IMG/VR virus record: IMGVR_UViG_3300049812_000109
Span: 1-24,078 of that record
Length of the DNA stretch: 24,078 bases
Source of the DNA: a virus
Strand: one strand, 5' to 3'
The position numbers and the translations under genes were made by a program. Under the pieces are notes generated by a model that was not told the origin of the DNA, did no database searches, and saw only the letters and a program-made list of their open reading frames with translations. Below are positions 13,941 to 24,078 of the stretch, piece by piece (positions within the stretch are counted from its first letter, which is position 1; each line of letters starts with the position of its first letter).

Positions 13941-15062
13941 TTATGCTACTAAGTAGCCTGAAAATGATGCTTCTACAGTACCTATAGTTGACTGACTTGC
14001 ACCACCACTTTGACTCCACTTAACAAACGCAGTATCACTTGCATCCATATCTGCTAATACATTTATATTAAATGTCCAAAATGCTGGGTCACCACTCAAG
14101 CCACCTAAATCAAAAATAGTTTCATAATTTCTATTACTTGTAGTAAGAAAAAGTCTAATATAAGTAGCGGCAGTATCTAGAGTACCTGCTCTAACTGTGA
14201 CATCTAATTGATACCTTCCTGTTATTGGAGCAGTAAATATATAATTACTATTATTATAATCTGCATTTTGGTCAAATACTTCTGTTCCAAAAGCTATAGT
14301 GGCATCACTAGCAATACTAGTTTGTGAGCTACTAGGTCTAGCCATAAAAGCAGGTTGAAGTGGTTTGGTTACAGCACCAGTAGAATCAATTTTTAAACTA
14401 GCTCCTGCTGAAGTAGCTAATGTCATGTTATTATCATTATGTCCATATTGAATGTAAGCTGTCATAGAATCTTGTTCAGCATCATTGAATCCTATATAAC
14501 CAGAACTGTCATTTCCTGAATATATTGTTAATCCTCTTCCTCCTGAACCATTACCTATAACTAAATCATCTGCTAAGTTATAATGACCATCAGGATTTGA
14601 ATTACCAATGCCAACTAACCCTGCTCCTGCATCAAGAAAAATACCATGAGTGTTACCATCACTTTCAACACGAAAGTCTAGGTCTATGCTATCTTCATTA
14701 AAAACTGCTTCGCTTGAAGTAAATTTTAAACGACCTCGTGTATTACCATCAACCATAGTTACTAAATTTAATGCAGAATCTTCTGTGCCATTAGACACAT
14801 CAGTTGCAGTTGCTTCTAGTTGAACTGCTGTTGTTACTTCTGCTGCATCATTATCAAAAAGAAATTGAACACGACCTAATACATCATTGTCAGCAGGACT
14901 TCCACTATCTCTTGTAAATTGTACTACAGGACCTCTATCTCCATCTGCATCAGTTGATGTTAATACTAATTGTGGGTCATTATCAGCAGTGCTTATAGTT
15001 GTACCATCTAATATGGTAGCACCTGCTCCTAATAGTTTTGCTGTATCTGATGCTCTAGTCAT
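13941..15062 (-). CDS. Tail-fibre protein with C1q-like C-terminal domain
   Basis: A 373-aa secreted-structure-type protein without membrane segments. Residues 23-158 form a shaft module (STDAD, SPADNDVLGRVQF, EAVFNE, DFRVESD, VGIGNSNP) shared with the 440-aa fibre gene. After a linker, residues about 237-373 match the C1q/TNF-like pattern: QPAFMARPSSS, then the FTAPITGRYQLDV signature, and the ending SFSGYLVA. C1q domains form compact trimeric knobs, so this end is probably the receptor-binding tip (inference). AAGGAGAA precedes the ATG by 5 bases. Upstream is a 57-aa small gene ending 9 bases away. The N-terminus is short and lacks the long virion-anchoring region of the other fibres, so it may bind another fibre or baseplate protein. 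Confidence 0.82.
   Translation of the reverse strand: MTRASDTAKLLGAGATILDGTTISTADNDPQLVLTSTDADGDRGPVVQFTRDSGSPADNDVLGRVQFLFDNDAAEVTTAVQLEATATDVSNGTEDSALNLVTMVDGNTRGRLKFTSSEAVFNEDSIDLDFRVESDGNTHGIFLDAGAGLVGIGNSNPDGHYNLADDLVIGNGSGGRGLTIYSGNDSSGYIGFNDAEQDSMTAYIQYGHNDNNMTLATSAGASLKIDSTGAVTKPLQPAFMARPSSSQTSIASDATIAFGTEVFDQNADYNNSNYIFTAPITGRYQLDVTVRAGTLDTAATYIRLFLTTSNRNYETIFDLGGLSGDPAFWTFNINVLADMDASDTAFVKWSQSGGASQSTIGTVEASFSGYLVA
14589..14996 (-). repeat. Fibre shaft module, copy in C1q-tipped fibre
   Basis: Residues 23-158 of the 373-aa fibre align with residues 106-241 of the 440-aa fibre. Shared landmarks in the same order are AD(N)-QL-L-STDAD, SPAD-DV-GRV-FL, V-DVS-GTE, EAVFNE, DFRVESD-NT, and VGIG-NSP. 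The two copies are alike enough to be paralogues, but not identical in DNA. Confidence 0.8.
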
Positions 15063-15071
15063 ATCTTCTCC

Positions 15072-15245
15072 TTAACCTGTAAATGCGTCTGCATCTGTTA
15101 TTGCTTTATCAATAACTGTAAAACTCTCTGAACCCCAATCAGTCAATGCCTTTTGATATTTGAGATACCCAACATGACGAATAACATCTTGTTTTTTTTC
15201 ATCATGTGTAAGGTCATGTTTTATACCTCTTGTGATTCTTTCCAC
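15072..15245 (-). CDS. Small hypothetical protein, 57 aa, GTG start
   Basis: A 57-codon frame fills the gap between the 96-aa and 373-aa genes. It starts at GTG (15243-15245), the only usable start after an in-frame TAA, and stops at TAA (15072-15074). The product is soluble and helical: IKHDLTHDEKKQD, then VGYLKYQKALTDWGSE and IDKAITDADAFTG. It overlaps the end of the 96-aa gene by 25 bases and has only a weak ribosome binding site, so translation would depend on coupling. An eight-A run at 15192-15199 lies inside it. Support is the lack of alternative content and the sensible amino-acid pattern. Function unknown. Confidence 0.5.
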   Translation of the reverse strand: MERITRGIKHDLTHDEKKQDVIRHVGYLKYQKALTDWGSESFTVIDKAITDADAFTG

Positions 15246-15511
15246 GTCTTGTAGTTAGCCTTAACAGTGTCTGTCCAAACTGCATTGGCTACTGCTTGTA
15301 CTTCGGTAGCTTCTGAACTTATGTCGGTGTCTGTGTATGTCCACTTACCATCTTCACCTTTTATAGATACAAATGGTCTTACAACGTGTCTTTCTCTTGA
15401 CCTACTAATTTCTTTATCATCTTCTTTGACAACTGTATCTGTTGCAACTTGCACATTCCAACTACCAACTATTTCTATTTTTTCTATTATTGTTTCTTTT
15501 GTTAATGCCAT
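15221..15511 (-). CDS. Small late protein of the fibre cassette, 96 aa
   Basis: A 96-aa protein starting MALTKETIIEKIEIVGSWN, with a mostly beta first half (VQVATDTVVKEDDKEISRS) and a second half containing EVQAVANAVWTDTVKANY. This resembles small proteins regularly found between marine-phage fibre genes (from memory of the type; no search was possible). It has the initiation context GAGGAAATAAAAAATG, nearly identical to that of the 118-aa gene. It sits 12 bases after the 440-aa fibre gene. A virion or fibre-accessory role is likely, but unproven. Confidence 0.75.
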   Translation of the reverse strand: MALTKETIIEKIEIVGSWNVQVATDTVVKEDDKEISRSRERHVVRPFVSIKGEDGKWTYTDTDISSEATEVQAVANAVWTDTVKANYKTWKESQEV

Positions 15512-15523
15512 TTTTTATTTCCT

Positions 15524-16846
15524 CTATTCAACATGATAAGTGCAAAAAAAGTCTATTCTTTTGGTACTTGCATTTGCACAAGTTAAGGTACTATTAGCGT
15601 TATAAATAAAATGTATATCTGCCGCTTGATTTTCTATATTAGGTCTAAGATTATTAACTACATAATCACTAGTGCTTAAAGTTGTAAAACTAACATTTCC
15701 ACCTCCAAGAAAAAAACCATTTATACTAGATGAGAAAGGTAAACTTAGATTTAAAGGATTAGTATTAGTATTAGAGCCTACAGTTACAGATGCGTGTAAC
15801 ATAACCAATCTTCCTATTTTTGTATAATTTCCTCTATTGGTTGTAATAGATGCTTGTCCACTAATTTCAGTAAATGAATGTGTTCCTTCTTCATAATCGT
15901 CTAGAAGATTTGATGCAGTAGCAGCAGTAACACCAAGATAAACACCCTTAGAAGCATTGGTAAAAAGTATATCATGGCTTACTGCAAGATTGTCTCCTGA
16001 TGCACCTGCCAAAACAACATCAGATGTACTGTTATCTTTAAAGGCAACTAAAGCTAAACTATCTGTACTGACAAACTTTCCAGCAATATTGCCACTTCCA
16101 CTATGTACTTCAAAAACTTCAGTAGGGGAATTTGTACCTATGCCAACTCGGTCATTACCAGCATCAACAAAAAGCATATTAGTATTGGTATCTGATTCAA
16201 CACGAAAATCTATGTTTGCACCACCTTCATTAAAAACTGCTTCAGTTGCGTTAAATTCTAGTCTTTGACTATTTGTACCTCCAACTATGGAATCAATTCG
16301 GAGGTTAGCACTCTCTGTGCCATCGGAGACATCTACTGCTTTAGAAAATATTGTTGCATAAGCAATCTGTTCATCAGCATCATTTTCACCTAGAAATCTA
16401 ACTCTACCAAAAACATCAGAGTCAGCAGGACTTGCTGAGTTTCTATACAAATCAAGTTGTGGACCTGAACTTGCATCAGCATCAGTAGAAACAAGAGTTA
16501 GTTGTGCATTATTATCAGCAGTTGTTATCGTTACTGCGTTATCAAACTGTCCACCATCTGCTTTACTTACAGTGTCTGCCACAGAGAATACATCATAGAC
16601 TACAATCTCAATCATGTCACTTACAGTAGCACCTGTAGCGAGTACAACAGTCGTGCCTGTAGTAGCTGTGTAGTCAGCTTCACTTAGCTTCACACCATTT
16701 TGATACACATCAACGTAGTTACTGTCTTTGTAGCTTAACGTGATATTTTCTGCACCTGCACCACTGAATGATGTTTGGGATGCAGTAGCAGTGTATGTAT
16801 GTTTCTGTCGTACTCCGTTAGATGGAGATACTCCTAAGTATGCCAT
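15524..16846 (-). CDS. Tail-fibre protein with DDYEEGT-type C-terminal module, 440 aa
   Basis: A 440-aa fibre. The N-terminal ~95 residues (MAYLGVSPSNGVRQKHTYTA..., YVDVYQNGVKLSEADYTA) are a common marine-phage fibre head that probably docks to the virion. Residues 106-241 are the shaft module shared with the 373-aa fibre. From about 311 the sequence LLDDYEEGTHSF, then NRGNYTKIGRLVML, marks a recurrent C-terminal tip module that begins 'DDYEEGT'. No S74 protease motif is present. The ATG overlaps the preceding stop by one base (TAATG at 16844-16848 read on the minus strand). It is probably a receptor-binding or side fibre used together with the S74 and C1q fibres. Confidence 0.85.
   Translation of the reverse strand: MAYLGVSPSNGVRQKHTYTATASQTSFSGAGAENITLSYKDSNYVDVYQNGVKLSEADYTATTGTTVVLATGATVSDMIEIVVYDVFSVADTVSKADGGQFDNAVTITTADNNAQLTLVSTDADASSGPQLDLYRNSASPADSDVFGRVRFLGENDADEQIAYATIFSKAVDVSDGTESANLRIDSIVGGTNSQRLEFNATEAVFNEGGANIDFRVESDTNTNMLFVDAGNDRVGIGTNSPTEVFEVHSGSGNIAGKFVSTDSLALVAFKDNSTSDVVLAGASGDNLAVSHDILFTNASKGVYLGVTAATASNLLDDYEEGTHSFTEISGQASITTNRGNYTKIGRLVMLHASVTVGSNTNTNPLNLSLPFSSSINGFFLGGGNVSFTTLSTSDYVVNNLRPNIENQAADIHFIYNANSTLTCANASTKRIDFFCTYHVE
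16124..16531 (-). repeat. Fibre shaft module, copy in 440-aa fibre
   Basis: Residues 106-241 of the 440-aa fibre are the partner of the module at 14589-14996. Downstream of the module the two fibres have unrelated tips (DDYEEGT type here, C1q-like there), which is the pattern expected when shafts are duplicated or recombined and tips exchanged. Confidence 0.8.
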
Positions 16847-18147
16847 TATGTGTTCTCCAATGTTACTATTCTAGCTGTCAATGCTTCTATTGTAGCTTGT
16901 TGTTCTTGCAATGCTTTTGTGAGTAAGGGAACAAGTTTACTTTGGTCTATTCCTTGTGGATTTATTTCTGTAGTAGAATAAGTTTTAACATCACCCACAG
17001 ATTTAGTAGGGTTATCACCTTGAGTTTCAACATCATCTTCTGTGTATCTTGCTTCTACTGCCATAGCATCTTTCTCGCCAGTAATAGCTTCAGGTATAAT
17101 GCCTGATACTTCGTGTGCAATAAAACCATCTACTAAAGTATTATTTTCGTCTGCAATCCAATTAAATCTGCAAGGTTTAAGTTGTTTTAATCTAGTAGTT
17201 GCATCAAATTCATAAGTAATTGATTCTTTTAATCTGTAGTCTGAACTTGTATTATAAGCTACAGACGAACTACTTGCTCTTGTTATTGAACCTATTCTAC
17301 CACCACTACTTGTATTAAAATCACAAAATAAACCACCAGTATGGTCTACCCCAGCATAAAAATAAATATTTGCTCTTGAATTTAAATTATCACCTACACG
17401 AGCAACCATACCATCATTATTTCTTAGTGATGACCCAACAAGAAAACTAGTAGCACCTATATCTGCATTACCAGTAACCTTAACATCATGGTTAAATGTA
17501 GCTGTACCTGCATCTGACATATCAAGTGTAAGTGCAGTTACAGTAGAACCACCATCATTGCCTTGAAGTTTGAAATCAGCATCAGATACTGAGGAAAAAA
17601 TATGTAAATCATTACTGCTTTGATATATTTGACCAAATTCAGTTCCATCATCTTTTAGAAAAATATTTTGCCCACCTGCATCTAAAATAATGTCTCCTGC
17701 AACATCAATAGTTAAATCACCACTTGATAAGTCTATTTCTGTACCATCTATAGTTATATTATCTACCACAACACCTGCGTTTGCAGTGACTGCACCATTA
17801 AAAGATGCTGCTCCTGCCGCTGACATATCAAGTGTAAGTGCTGTGATTGCACTACCACCATCATTACCTTTGAATATTATGTCTGTGTCTGATGTAGGAG
17901 CATTTACAATAAAACTACCTGATTCCATACCTATGTTAGCAACACTTGTACCATCATCTTTTAAAGTAATATCACCACCACCCACATCAAAGTTAAAATC
18001 ACCTGCTACATCTATGCCACCATTTAAAATGGATGCTCCTGTAACAGTATGAGTTCCCCCTGTTGTAACATTACCACTAAAGTCACCTGTGGTTGAATCA
18101 ACAGCAGTTGCAATTATATTTTCAGGTTTCTTTCCTATGTATGGCAT
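16846..18147 (-). CDS. Tail-fibre protein with self-cleaving S74/ICE chaperone domain
   Basis: A 433-aa fibre ending in an intramolecular chaperone (peptidase S74) domain. Residues about 300-420 contain SSDYRLKESI with probable catalytic Ser302 and Lys307, five apart as in the endosialidase dyad, followed by LKQLKPCRFNW and VDGFIAHEVSGIIPEAI. A terminal heptad helix (LVPLLTKALQEQQATIEALT) would trimerise the chaperone. In the family, the chaperone folds the trimeric beta-helical shaft and is then cut off at the Ser. The shaft (47-224) has two tandem ~100-residue repeats. The N-terminus MPYIGKKPENI is of a common marine-phage fibre type. It lies one base after the 118-aa gene, so it is probably served by the consensus promoter upstream. 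Confidence 0.92.
   Translation of the reverse strand: MPYIGKKPENIIATAVDSTTGDFSGNVTTGGTHTVTGASILNGGIDVAGDFNFDVGGGDITLKDDGTSVANIGMESGSFIVNAPTSDTDIIFKGNDGGSAITALTLDMSAAGAASFNGAVTANAGVVVDNITIDGTEIDLSSGDLTIDVAGDIILDAGGQNIFLKDDGTEFGQIYQSSNDLHIFSSVSDADFKLQGNDGGSTVTALTLDMSDAGTATFNHDVKVTGNADIGATSFLVGSSLRNNDGMVARVGDNLNSRANIYFYAGVDHTGGLFCDFNTSSGGRIGSITRASSSSVAYNTSSDYRLKESITYEFDATTRLKQLKPCRFNWIADENNTLVDGFIAHEVSGIIPEAITGEKDAMAVEARYTEDDVETQGDNPTKSVGDVKTYSTTEINPQGIDQSKLVPLLTKALQEQQATIEALTARIVTLENT
17476..17706 (-). repeat. Internal fibre-shaft repeat, second copy
   Basis: Residues 148-224 of the S74 fibre: VAGD, LKDDGTEFGQIYQSS, a QGNDGGSTVTALTLDM block, and TATFN. They match residues 47-121 of the same protein in order and spacing. 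Confidence 0.8.
17785..18009 (-). repeat. Internal fibre-shaft repeat, first copy
   Basis: Residues 47-121 of the S74 fibre: VAGD, LKDDGTSVANIGMES, a KGNDGGSAITALTLDM block, and AASFN. The period is about 101 residues relative to the copy at 17476-17706. The DNA encoding the NDGG...ALTLDMS stretch is nearly the same in both copies. Confidence 0.8.
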
Positions 18148-18148
18148 A

Positions 18149-18505
18149 TTATGTAATCTCCATATAACTCATTGTCACTGAAACTTTATCTGCTACAGAA
18201 CAGTCTACAGTTATTCTGTCATCAGCATTTAAAACAATCTTGTTACCTGACATAATCTCTACAGATGAACCTACAGGTATAGGTACGTCTTTTATAAGAT
18301 GTGCTGTAGTATTCTGTGTTGAGCCTGATTGGTTTGTTGTACTTACTAATTTAACAGAAGCTGTAACTTGTGCTGTATGAACATTTGCGAGTGTTAGTCC
18401 TATAACAACAGCAGTGGTGTTGTCTGGACAATCATATATCTCTTCAAAAGTTCCTGCACTTGCAGGTGCAACATCCCTTGTTGTTAATTTAAATGTATTT
18501 GCCAT
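18149..18505 (-). CDS. Small virion-type beta protein, 118 aa
   Basis: A 118-aa protein with alternating hydrophobic strands (AVVIGLTLANV, TASVKLVST, RITVDCSVADKVSVTMSYMEI) and no membrane helix, predicting a beta-sandwich. It starts MANTFKLTTRDVAPASAGTF and is preceded by AAGGAAATAAAAAATG. It is the first gene after a perfect sigma70 consensus promoter, with a predicted leader of only about 10 bases. It ends one base before the S74 fibre gene. The type is common among marine-phage structural genes; I cannot name it. A highly expressed decoration, tail or fibre-associated protein is plausible given the promoter. Confidence 0.8.
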   Translation of the reverse strand: MANTFKLTTRDVAPASAGTFEEIYDCPDNTTAVVIGLTLANVHTAQVTASVKLVSTTNQSGSTQNTTAHLIKDVPIPVGSSVEIMSGNKIVLNADDRITVDCSVADKVSVTMSYMEIT

Positions 18506-18521
18506 TTTTTATTTCCTTATA

Positions 18522-18550
18522 ATTATACTCGGTTTTGCCTAATTTGTCAA
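18522..18550 (-). promoter_or_regulatory. Perfect-consensus sigma70 promoter (TTGACA-17-TATAAT)
   Basis: On the minus strand, TTGACA (18545-18550) and TATAAT (18522-18527) are separated by exactly 17 bases, matching the bacterial housekeeping consensus at 12 of 12 positions. The start of transcription would be near 18515, only about 10 bases ahead of the ATG of the 118-aa gene and at its ribosome binding site. It lies in the only sizeable intergenic gap of the fibre region (18506-18556), which argues against chance. It should let host RNA polymerase transcribe the 118-aa gene and the fibre cassette independently of the upstream late transcript. Confidence 0.88.
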
Positions 18551-18565
18551 GTAAAATTAACCGAG
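18528..18565. repeat. Inverted repeat flanking the -35 box of the late promoter
   Basis: CTCGGTT at 18528-18534 and AACCGAG at 18559-18565 are exact 7-base inverted repeats with a 24-base centre. They bracket the -35 hexamer, touch the -10 on one side, and reach into the end of the 706-aa fibre gene on the other. This may be an operator, or a stem in read-through RNA from upstream followed by a UA-rich stretch. It could also be chance. Confidence 0.5.
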
Positions 18566-20677
18566 GGCAATCGCTAATGCAGTTGGGTCATCTGTTGTAA
18601 ACCCTGCACTAGATAAATATGTCTTAACATCTGTTAATGCCACTTGTTTCATTGTACCATTATCATTTGTTACCACTCTATCTGCATCTGCTAATGTTGT
18701 AGAAGAAGCAGATGTATCACCATCCATGATGTTTAGTTCTGTTGCTGTTGAGGTGACACCATCTAATATGTTCAACTCGGCTGCAGTTGATGTAATTGAA
18801 GTTCCTGCTATTTGTAATGTAGTAGCATTTACTTCACCACTAGAACCATATATGACTGCTTTACTGTTTACTATTGTACCTGCAGATGAACCATCAACTA
18901 AGTTTAACTCTGCAGGAGTAGATGATATCTGTGTAGTGCTTACGGCAGCTAATACAGGTATTGTACCTGATACGTTTGGTAAGTTAATTGTTCTGTCTGC
19001 TGTTGGGTCTATAATAGTAAGTGTAGTCTCGTGAGCATCTGCAGTAGCACCCTCAAATACTATTGCATTTTCTGCGTTCATTGTAACTGTGTCTACAGTA
19101 GTTGTAGTACCTGCTACAGTTAGTTTAGGTACGAGTAGCTCACCTGTACTTGGATTATACCTTAGTGCTCCTGTATCATCTAGTAAACCATTTGATTCAT
19201 CATGAAATACTACAGGAAAGTTTGTGTTAGCTGTACTATCTGTAACTGTTGTTGTTGCTGCTAAAGTAGCATTTGATACTGTTGTACCTGCTATAACACT
19301 TGATAGGGCAGTACCATTGACTGTGATTGCATCTGCTTCAAGTGTTCCATCTATATCTGCATCACCACTTACATCAAGAGAACCTGCATCAAGCTCACCT
19401 GTTAGTGTAATATTTCTAAAGGATGCTACATCTTTGTTTGCATCTGCTGTTACTACTTTACTTGCAACGACTGTGCCTACAGAAGCACCTGTGTCACTAT
19501 AATTAAGTTCTGTTGCAGTAGAGGTTACACCATCTAAGATATTAAGTTCTGCAGCAGTAGAAGTTACATTCGTGCCACCGATATCAAGTGTAGTCATGGA
19601 TACTTCACCTGCTACAGTAACCACACCACTAGCGAGTGTTAATAAATCTGTGTCGTTTGTGTGACCTATGGTGCTATTGTTTATAACAACATCATCTATA
19701 ACTAGAGAACCACCTGTAACTAATCCTAGAGTTGTTATTGTAGATGAACCTATATTAATACTACCAAAATCACTCGTTATACTACCAGAGTTTAATGCAC
19801 CCACTGTTGTAGCTGCAGTAGTTACAAGGTTAGGCATTGCAGTTATTTCATCGTCAAAGTAAGCTGCTAAGTCTGTTACTGCCACCTGAACCATAGTTCC
19901 GTTGTCATTTAAAACAACTCTATCTGCATCTGCTACTGTTGTTGATGTGGCACTTGTACCCCCATCTACAATGTTTAGTTCTGCTGCAGTAGATGTAATT
20001 GCTGTGCCATTAAAGTTTATTGCATCTAAGTATGCAACACCATCAATGTATATATCTTTCCACTCTTGACTAGAAGAACCTAAGTCATATGTATTATCAT
20101 CGTCAGGTATAATATTAGAATCTACATCTGCACCAAACACAACATTGTCTGTGGCAGCATCACCCATTGTGATTGTACCACCATTAAATGTAGTTGTACC
20201 TGTAACAGTTAAGTTACCACCTATACCTAAGTTACCTGATATGTCAGCATTACCATTTATATCTACTGTGGTTGCAGCTATCTGTATTTCTGTATCAGCT
20301 ACAAGGTCAAGTTGTCCATCGGCACTTGAATTGATGTATATAGCTGTATCTCTGAATTGTAGCTTCTCTGTAGAAGCAATAAGTATGTCATCACTAAACT
20401 CAAAATAATCCTCGTCTTCTTTCCATGTCAATACACCATCTGCTGTTTCACCATCAAATGTTACTGCTATATCTGTACCTGCTGTGCCATCACCTATAGT
20501 GATTGCAGTTCCAAGTAGTTTAGTTATAGGTCCACCTTCAGCAGTTGTACCATCGTGTGTATGTCCTGTACTTGATGCAAATGCTGCAAGTAGTTGGTCA
20601 AACTCATTATTGGTATCGGCTGCTTGTATTACGTCACCATCAGTGTATGATGATTGTCTTGTGTACGTTGCTCCCAT
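18557..20677 (-). CDS. Repeat-rich tail-fibre protein, 706 aa
   Basis: A 706-aa Ala/Thr/Asp-rich fibre of the 'STAAELN' type common in marine phages. The N-terminus includes GHTHDGTTAEGG (H39, H41), an HxH pattern like metal-coordinating sites in trimeric phage fibres. Residues about 150-220 include LGIGGNLTVTG and IIPDDDNTYDLGSSSQEW. The TSTAAELN-like motif then recurs four times, twice doubled as ILDGVTSTATELN. A longer block ending ADADRVV-NDNGTM-QVA-TD occurs near the middle and again at the C-terminus. No S74 domain or enzyme motif is present. The start codon overlaps the preceding stop by one base (20677). It is the first fibre gene after the tube proteins, so it is perhaps the main fibre or its virion-proximal part. 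Confidence 0.85.
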   Translation of the reverse strand: MGATYTRQSSYTDGDVIQAADTNNEFDQLLAAFASSTGHTHDGTTAEGGPITKLLGTAITIGDGTAGTDIAVTFDGETADGVLTWKEDEDYFEFSDDILIASTEKLQFRDTAIYINSSADGQLDLVADTEIQIAATTVDINGNADISGNLGIGGNLTVTGTTTFNGGTITMGDAATDNVVFGADVDSNIIPDDDNTYDLGSSSQEWKDIYIDGVAYLDAINFNGTAITSTAAELNIVDGGTSATSTTVADADRVVLNDNGTMVQVAVTDLAAYFDDEITAMPNLVTTAATTVGALNSGSITSDFGSINIGSSTITTLGLVTGGSLVIDDVVINNSTIGHTNDTDLLTLASGVVTVAGEVSMTTLDIGGTNVTSTAAELNILDGVTSTATELNYSDTGASVGTVVASKVVTADANKDVASFRNITLTGELDAGSLDVSGDADIDGTLEADAITVNGTALSSVIAGTTVSNATLAATTTVTDSTANTNFPVVFHDESNGLLDDTGALRYNPSTGELLVPKLTVAGTTTTVDTVTMNAENAIVFEGATADAHETTLTIIDPTADRTINLPNVSGTIPVLAAVSTTQISSTPAELNLVDGSSAGTIVNSKAVIYGSSGEVNATTLQIAGTSITSTAAELNILDGVTSTATELNIMDGDTSASSTTLADADRVVTNDNGTMKQVALTDVKTYLSSAGFTTDDPTALAIALG
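18650..18806 (-). repeat. STAAELN/ADADRVV fibre repeat, C-terminal copy
   Basis: Encodes TSTAAELNILDG, VTSTATELNIMDG, then ADADRVVTNDNGTMKQVA. This reproduces the block encoded at about 19875-20005. Further single or doubled ELN motifs are at about 18877-18931 and 19497-19571. DNA copies share long stretches, for example the complement of TCTATCTGCATCTGCTA in both. Confidence 0.75.
19875..20005 (-). repeat. STAAELN/ADADRVV fibre repeat, central copy
   Basis: Encodes TSTAAELNIVDGGTSATSTT followed by ADADRVVLNDNGTMVQVA, the partner of the C-terminal copy at 18650-18806. The 1.2-kb spacing and high DNA similarity make it a possible site for deletion or recombination within the fibre gene. Confidence 0.7.
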
Positions 20678-22440: not shown

Positions 22441-23382
22441 TTAATTCACCCTTATACTTAAATCTGCACTACTTGTATAACCTACTTTTGGTATAAATGT
22501 AGACCTTACATATTCAAATCTATTGACAAGTAGTGTCTGCATATTCTTTATGCCCTGTTCAAACCTTTGAAAATTAAGTTGATATTGTGCTGTTTCACCT
22601 CTATACTGATATACAAAAGCAGTTGCACCATCTACTATAACTGCTGCAAATCTGTCAGGTATTGTAGTTGTGTCACTATGGGCAGACATATCTGTTGGAA
22701 AAGAGAAAAAGTCATACTTTAAACTAAATCCTTTTGTAGGAAAAGGATATAATAAAAAGTTATTATCAGGTGTTCTTGCTACATATTGTGGCACACCCCC
22801 TGATTCAAACTGTGCTACCTGTACTCCACTTGCTATAGATGCTGCAGTTGTATCGTTTGCACCTCTAGTGCATCCTGTGAATGTAGTGCTTGAACCTACT
22901 GCAGTATATGTTATCTGCTCATTACCTATAAATAAAGTTCCTGTAGCATCAAATCCTGTTGTACTTGCTACAGTAATTGTTGTCACACTGTCTGTGTGTG
23001 TTGTACTTGTAGTAGTTGTTTGTATTTCATCTTCTTGTGTTATATAACTATTTATATAATCATTATAATTTATTATGTATAATCTACCCCCACTACATCC
23101 TAAGTCTGAATCTTTTACTAATCTAAATGTATTATAGTCAACAGTCTTTGCAGTTGTAGGTATTGAATACCTTACAGTTCCACCGACTAACGTTTCTGTT
23201 TTTGTTGAATGATTAAAAGGATATTGAAATTCTTTTTGATTAATATATCGGACAGATTCATTGACTGCATTTTGAGCTTGAGTTTGTATGCCTCTAGCAC
23301 TAGTAAAGTTACTTGAAGTTAGTTGCACTTCATTTAATCGTGCTAAAACTTTATTAGTATATGTTAAGTAACTCTCTGCCAT
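22441..23382 (-). CDS. Probable tail adaptor/tube protein (podovirus gp11-like), 313 aa
   Basis: A 313-aa protein with a helical N-terminus (SYLTYTNKVLARLNEVQL, AVNESVRYINQKEFQYPF) and a C-terminal helix ending LLVNRFEYVRSTFI. This architecture is typical of the head-to-tail adaptor or tubular protein A position in podoviruses (inference). Residues 124-192 are a beta module shared with the next protein. Between them, PQYVARTPDNNFLLYPFP and ATAFVYQYRG suggest a folded core interrupted by the module. It has AGGA about 8 bases before the ATG, and its stop directly precedes the 587-aa start. A neck or stopper protein is the alternative. Confidence 0.68.
   Translation of the reverse strand: MAESYLTYTNKVLARLNEVQLTSSNFTSARGIQTQAQNAVNESVRYINQKEFQYPFNHSTKTETLVGGTVRYSIPTTAKTVDYNTFRLVKDSDLGCSGGRLYIINYNDYINSYITQEDEIQTTTTSTTHTDSVTTITVASTTGFDATGTLFIGNEQITYTAVGSSTTFTGCTRGANDTTAASIASGVQVAQFESGGVPQYVARTPDNNFLLYPFPTKGFSLKYDFFSFPTDMSAHSDTTTIPDRFAAVIVDGATAFVYQYRGETAQYQLNFQRFEQGIKNMQTLLVNRFEYVRSTFIPKVGYTSSADLSIRVN
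22807..23013 (-). repeat. Inserted beta module, copy in 313-aa tail protein
   Basis: Residues 124-192 of the 313-aa protein are the partner of the module at 21931-22125. The flanking sequence in the two proteins is unrelated, so the module was inserted into or duplicated between two different scaffolds. Confidence 0.82.
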
Positions 23383-23398
23383 GTATAATTCCTATAAA

Positions 23399-23716
23399 TT
23401 AAGTATTATAATCTAATAATAGCTCTTCATTTTTTTTTACTAGTCTTTTAGTAATAATATTAAAAACAAAATAATCATCCCAATCTTGTGTGCATTCTAA
23501 AAAACAATTTGGTTTATCTGAGTGATTTATAAAGCCACCCAAAGGTGTTCTTATATAATTAAAAATCATTGGCACTTTAATATGTGTAGAACCTAAATCT
23601 GTATCTTTTTTTATATTTTGTTTAGCAAATATTCCATGACCATCAATAAAACTTTTTTGTATATAAACTTCATTAGGTAAAGGATTATAGTAAAATCTAT
23701 TATAGTTTATTTTCAT
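23399..23716 (-). CDS. Small SET-domain protein (putative protein-lysine methyltransferase)
   Basis: A 105-aa protein that is essentially a minimal SET domain. The three hallmark motifs are in order: GHGIFA (26-31) after the strand EVYIQKS, GGFINHSDKPNC (60-71) with the NHS SAM-binding/pseudoknot motif, and NEELLLDY (96-103) with the catalytic-type Tyr103. In the family these residues bind S-adenosylmethionine and the target lysine. The pre- and post-SET regions are absent, as in several small bacterial and viral SET proteins. The gene is visibly more AT-rich than its neighbours and lacks a clear ribosome binding site. It lies just after a stem-loop between structural genes, like an inserted extra gene. 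The target is unknown: a virion or host protein is possible. Confidence 0.85.
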   Translation of the reverse strand: MKINYNRFYYNPLPNEVYIQKSFIDGHGIFAKQNIKKDTDLGSTHIKVPMIFNYIRTPLGGFINHSDKPNCFLECTQDWDDYFVFNIITKRLVKKNEELLLDYNT

Positions 23717-23741: not shown

Positions 23742-23767
23742 AGAGGAGCAAGTTGCCCTGCTCCCCT
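23742..23767 (-). terminator. Stem-loop after the structural gene (possible terminator or processing site)
   Basis: Arms AGAGGAGCA (23742-23750) and TGCTCCCCT (23759-23767) form a nine-pair stem with one G-U wobble and an 8-base loop. It lies 10 bases beyond the stop of the partial structural gene, in the right place for a terminator. The bases after it on the minus strand are A/T-rich but show no real U-run, so termination would be weak; an RNA end-stabilising or processing role is equally possible. Confidence 0.5.
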
Positions 23768-23776
23768 AGAAAAAGT

Positions 23777-24078
23777 TTAAGCTAATTGGTCTCTATCGAC
23801 CTCATCAGGCTTATCATCTAAACCATGACCTGCTAAATCAATAACAGTGGCATACATTCTAAGTCTGCCTGTAGCTGGAGCAGCACCTGCAATCTTAGCA
23901 TCAATAGTATCTGTAGTAGTTACAAATTGAGTGTAAGTTGAAGCTGCACTTCCTACAATAGTATTAGTTTGACCATTACTACCTGCTGCACAAAAACCTG
24001 TAGAGGTTATATCTGCACCATCAATAATGTCATCACCTGCTGCAAAGTCCATGTCAAGAGTACAACTGCCTGTGAATG
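23777..24078 (-). CDS. C-terminal part of probable virion structural protein
   Basis: The frame is open to the right edge of the window, so the N-terminus is missing; about 100 residues are visible. The sequence is Ala/Thr/Asp/Gly-rich with DMDFAAGDDIIDGAD, then TGRLRMYATVIDLAGHG and an acidic end (DDKPDEVDRDQLA). The composition and beta pattern are typical of head or decoration proteins in marine phages. It is followed by a stem-loop, as is often seen after highly expressed capsid genes. I cannot decide between the major capsid protein C-terminus and a separate structural protein. An internal ATG at 24050-24052 is unlikely to be the start because the preceding codons are also coding-like. 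Confidence 0.6.
   Translation of the reverse strand, partial: FTGSCTLDMDFAAGDDIIDGADITSTGFCAAGSNGQTNTIVGSAASTYTQFVTTTDTIDAKIAGAAPATGRLRMYATVIDLAGHGLDDKPDEVDRDQLA

Follow-up and report, generated by a model that had tools for sequence, protein, structure and literature searches.

The viral DNA analysed here (the window; 24,078 nt, IMG/VR record IMGVR_UViG_3300049812_000109) carries a gene for a 105-aa SET-domain protein. This gene was inserted recently, cleanly and on its own at the small-head-protein/tail junction. The SET fold and ancestry of the protein are well supported. Our main reading, to which we give a probability of roughly 0.6, is that it is a compact SET protein lysine methyltransferase, carried as recent single-gene cargo by a marine podovirus of the HMO-2011 type, with a conserved host protein as its likeliest target.

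A one-gene insertion between the small head and tail genes

The window was compared with Puniceispirillum phage HMO-2011 (NC_021864). The RNR (74% identity), the tail protein (57%) and p2801 (79%) matched this phage, and the order of the RNR, tail and virion genes was the same in both. The window therefore represents part of the genome of an HMO-2011-type podovirus. An earlier note on this DNA had placed the SET gene between structural genes, and the flanks turned out to be the small head protein and the tail protein (Table 1). We ruled out the left flank as a coat protein, since its sequence corresponds to the C-terminal portion of the small head protein; in relatives the full protein has about 160-177 aa, ends in DRDQLA or DRDTLA and comes after a P22-type coat protein. 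The number of genes from coat to tail varies among HMO-2011 and the Roseobacter phages CRP-1 and CRP-345. The phage collection search, in which six records matched, revealed no SET homologue in these three phages.

Table 1. Coordinates of the SET gene, its surroundings and other features of the window, with the cargo gene of related phages
Feature	Position	Strand	Evidence or remark
SET-domain ORF	23399..23716	minus	ATG at 23716, 105 aa
Tail protein (HMO-2011 gp45-like)	22441..23382	minus	PHROG_10775, 1e-38; right flank of insertion
Small head protein, C-terminal part	23777..24076	minus	left flank of insertion; cut by window end
Inserted segment	23396..23736	minus	about 341 bp, both ends placed to within a few bases; gap comparison and junction alignment
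Conserved hairpin	23742..23767	minus	within a fold of -21.5 kcal/mol; between small head and tail genes
Tandem large repeat-rich tail-fibre-like proteins	13941-20677		share segments, e.g. p13941 and p15524 match in parts
Virion-region protein, 1167 aa	9854-13357		long Gln/Asn/Ala-rich middle; ends match HMO-2011 gp25 (69%, 46%); no PHROG match
132-aa cargo gene in relatives	L174:1407-1805, L175:1015-1413, L181:3590-3988, L201:332-730, L203:639-1037		

Using the tail protein of the window as the query, we fetched the 80 closest IMG/VR loci. The SET gene was present in two contigs identical to the window at the protein level. At least 46 close relatives had an empty site, in which the small head protein gene is followed by 50-56 bp and then by the tail gene, compared with a gap of 394 bp in the window; the examined stretch of these 46 contained no SET homologue. 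Their small head proteins were 68-100% and their tail proteins 74-97% identical to those of the window. The junctions of 15 of the empty-site relatives were aligned with that of the window, and the insert was found to consist of a 20-nt AT-rich leader and the SET gene. The hairpin of the window was seen in most of the 15 aligned junctions, and a similar purine-rich ribosome-binding site stood before the tail gene in all of them. In the window, the tail gene keeps an intact AGGAATT ribosome-binding site after the insert. Because relatives without the SET gene also have the hairpin, it belongs to the recipient genome and we rejected it as a part of the inserted unit. The earlier proposal of a recent accessory insertion is strengthened by the empty site, but the stem-loop does not mark that insertion.

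The SET gene had a GC content of 22.6%, whereas the window as a whole had 36.0% and the other genes that were measured fell within 32-40%. It lay 13 points below its own locus, the largest such gap among the SET loci compared (median 3.4 points; next largest, 9). No clear Shine-Dalgarno sequence preceded the SET ATG, in contrast to the tail gene. Both the AT-rich DNA and the weak translation signal described in the earlier note were thus recovered. The donor of the insertion was not found among the known SET relatives because the closest of them is only 80% identical. In five HMO-2011-type relatives, a different gene of 132 aa (MADTVTSQTILNTPYRLVMKF...) is located directly before the tail gene, indicating that this junction takes up cargo repeatedly.

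Fold and architecture of the compact SET family

The open reading frame that the earlier note had described was found at exactly its coordinates, on the minus strand, with all three SET motifs (GHGIFA, NHS and EELLLDY) in its translation. An HMM search confirmed the proposed family membership: Pfam SET (PF00856) matched the protein with an E-value of 9.6e-11 and 42.5 bits, against a curated cut-off of 22.4 bits, although the score comes from the second half of the domain only. The same model was found in 34 of the 34 family members scanned. PHROG_28741, labelled "unknown function", also matched (E = 5e-20), and a sequence search returned SET enzymes with known structure. The median pairwise dN/dS of the gene family was about 0.17 (111 pairs; usable dS, 0.05 to 1.5). 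This low ratio reflects purifying selection and indicates that the protein is maintained. The ORF is a real gene and did not arise by chance. The only NCBIfam match was a partial one, to the model of a large Legionella effector (24.7 bits vs. a cut-off of 550); it was not meaningful and is due to the SET motif common to both. The protein had no match in PADLOC, a library of defence-system proteins, and a link to anti-defence was dropped.

We predicted the structure with AlphaFold2 from the SET protein and 43 relatives, leaving out four rows from GenBank phages. The model was confident (pLDDT 88.2, pTM 0.78) and, in a Foldseek search of the PDB, gave 218 matches at E <= 1e-3. All of the 50 matches listed were SET-domain enzymes or complexes holding one, and the SET (beta-clip) fold was matched at 1e-6 to 1e-5, with a TM of 0.60-0.69. 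These matches included MLL3 (E 2e-6) and a Plasmodium SET protein (TM 0.69), as well as KMT5A and SET7/9. The TM-scores were moderate (0.60-0.73), with an rmsd of 3-5 Å for most matches. In the viral structure library, the model matched SET proteins of giant viruses and of uncultured tailed phages.

The conserved segments of the protein are G26xG28, R56TPLGGF, N64-H65-S and E97E98xxxxY103. Across 43 aligned rows, S22, G28, G42, H45, R56-T57-P58, G60-G61, N64-H65, N70, E98 and Y103 were invariant, and G26 was kept in at least 90%. Conservation in the family is highest at GxG, NH, EE and the C-terminal Tyr. The distance between the final Gly of GxG and the Asn of NHS is 34-39 residues in the compact proteins, compared with 61 and 69 in the two ordinary SET proteins examined, namely the bacterial L118 (from a Pelagibacter MAG) and human KMT5A. 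Most of the SET-I insert is therefore missing. In SET enzymes, SET-I helps to hold the substrate peptide. The invariant RTPxGG segment and His45 occupy the place where it would stand, and an N-terminal YxPLP arm is present. In a gapless sequence alignment, the active-site Tyr of the "EY" motif of KMT5A (Y245) falls on Thr44, next to the invariant His45; the hhalign mapping of the active site spanned residues 57-105 only. MLL/KMT2, KMT5A and L118 share the SET fold, GxG, NHS and the C-terminal Tyr with the compact family, but they have a full SET-I insert. The compact family also lacks a post-SET domain, whereas L118 has a Cys-rich post-SET-like tail.

The nearest counterpart with a known activity is vSET (A612L) of chlorovirus PBCV-1, another minimal viral SET domain (119 aa). 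A profile of 34 relatives matched vSET over residues 15-104 (E 1.8e-6), and Foldseek aligned its structure (3kma) with our model at a TM of 0.68 and 21% identity. It differs in belonging to a eukaryotic virus, in its histone target and in a matched span about 13 residues longer than that of the window protein. PBCV-1 packages vSET in its virions, and the enzyme trimethylates host histone H3K27; circumstantial evidence suggests that this methylation inhibits host transcription (PMC7019647).

Distribution and gene neighbourhoods

We confirmed 207 SET relatives in IMG/VR and kept 80 of them for further comparison. The earlier note had called SET proteins mainly eukaryotic with scattered bacterial and viral members, which understates their distribution in marine phages. 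Three isolates carry the gene, pelagiphage Kolga (EXVC016S; Kolga_gp27) and cyanophages P-SSM7 (PSSM7_204, from Prochlorococcus) and P-RSM6 (CPXG_00131), in each case annotated as "hypothetical protein". The two cyanophage proteins are members of PHROG_28741, and all three belong to the same compact family as the window protein. They share the YxPLP arm, GxGhFA, RTPLGGFhNHS and EELxxxY and match Pfam SET, but they are 37-57% identical to the window protein and are located at other genome positions. A gene for the 30S ribosomal protein S21 is also present in Kolga (L117:36025-36231).

In the IMG/VR relatives, the SET gene sits in at least six kinds of neighbourhood. It adjoins the RNR where a run of virion genes ends, lies between a helicase gene and DUF3310-like/DNA polymerase genes, precedes a primase gene, is flanked by a 2OG-Fe(II) oxygenase region and a glycosyltransferase gene, adjoins glutaredoxin and primase-helicase genes or, in another lineage, is found near presumed virion genes. 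Most relatives lie in replication/nucleotide or accessory neighbourhoods.

Homologues also exist on bacterial chromosomes. In a flavobacterial MAG (L092:1822-7914), the SET gene is located within an arginine operon of the order argG, argC, SET, proC, aminotransferase, argF and argB-like, between argC and proC and with overlapping ends; this placement is a possible clue to function. A Porticoccaceae copy follows fatty-acid genes, a homologue lies on a 214-kb contig from a SAR86 single cell, and the chromosomal copies L101 and L115 adjoin unrelated genes. Some "cellular" hits, such as L090 and L094, lie among phage-like genes, and the binning of some contigs may be wrong. A plasmid search returned no SET relatives. 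In the tree (about 108 columns), the window grouped with 11 other viral rows (90/89), and the deeper branching of phage and cellular members lacked resolution and gave no direction of transfer between the two.

Proposed function

We infer that the protein binds SAM, is catalytically active and acts on a host target. If the protein works as other SET enzymes do, GHG (26-28) and N64-H65 would form the SAM-binding site, and the channel for the target lysine, through which the methyl group would be passed, would be completed by Tyr103. Since most of SET-I is missing, the substrate would probably be chosen by the family-specific RTPxGG segment, His45 and the YxPLP arm. During infection, the protein would most likely modify a conserved protein of the host, as vSET does with a host histone.

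The earlier note had suggested that the phage methylates its own capsid or tail. We consider it distinctly unlikely that the coat, small head or tail protein is the substrate. The idea draws on the local position of the gene between structural genes and is joined by the P-RSM6 copy, which lies near a gp25-like baseplate gene. In addition, a gene inside the late module may be expressed late, which would suit a virion substrate and fits a host target less well. However, the position is not conserved: elsewhere the gene lies beside helicase and DNA polymerase, primase, oxygenase and glycosyltransferase or glutaredoxin genes, and it is also chromosomal. Furthermore, the gene is missing from the 46 close relatives, although their flanking proteins are well conserved. 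Given that the gene has no fixed neighbour and is kept on chromosomes, a widely conserved protein of the bacterium seems a likelier target than a capsid or tail protein.

The compact architecture bears on whether the protein methylates lysine at all. Loss of the SET-I and post-SET segments could mean a loss of peptide binding, and a protein that keeps the SET fold but has lost methylation activity and serves as a SAM-binding or protein-binding factor would accord with the short GxG-NH spacing, the apparent lack of the usual active-site Tyr after GxG and the Pfam score confined to the second half of the domain. We regard this as unlikely, because the strongest conservation falls on GxG, NH, EE and the C-terminal Tyr, which is hard to explain without cofactor chemistry, and because vSET, which is matched over the full span, is active with a similarly small domain (PMC7019647). 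Very unlikely, in our view, is a methyltransferase whose target is a small molecule or a residue other than lysine, in which case the short SET-I would reflect the different substrate. The homologue inside the arginine biosynthesis operon would agree with it, as would the RTPxGG segment and His45 in place of the usual peptide-binding segment, but only a single genome showed the link to the operon, and the L101 and L115 copies lie beside unrelated genes. We know of no precedent for this alternative. Lysine methylation of a host protein thus remains our preferred reading.

In the literature searched, no function was reported for any phage SET protein, and one mention was found, an annotation of ORF62 in Stenotrophomonas phage Ps15. 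Protein lysine methylation by phages of bacteria therefore appears to be uncharacterised. The protein itself is not of a new kind, since databases already list SET-like proteins from phages; "SET domain containing proteins" of uncultured Caudovirales (BFVD A0A6J5L8Y2 and A0A6J5PTS6) have the same fold, but are longer (128 and 263 aa) and 23-26% identical, and they carry no functional assignment. What is new here is a compact, mobile, uncharacterised SET subfamily, widespread in marine phages of the SAR11, cyanobacterial and HMO-2011-type groups and labelled as unknown or hypothetical in PHROGs and GenBank. The exact empty site shows how a single gene entered a compact phage operon and left the hairpin and the next ribosome-binding site unbroken. 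The protein is small enough for immediate expression and assay, and the question of its substrate is directly testable because cultured Kolga, P-SSM7 and P-RSM6 carry the gene. We tentatively raise the possibility that these proteins, with most of SET-I missing and with YxPLP, RTPxGG and an invariant His, form a separate SET class that travels between unrelated marine phages as a single cargo gene and, during infection, methylates a conserved protein of the bacterium. If true, this class would be the bacterial counterpart of the host takeover by vSET.
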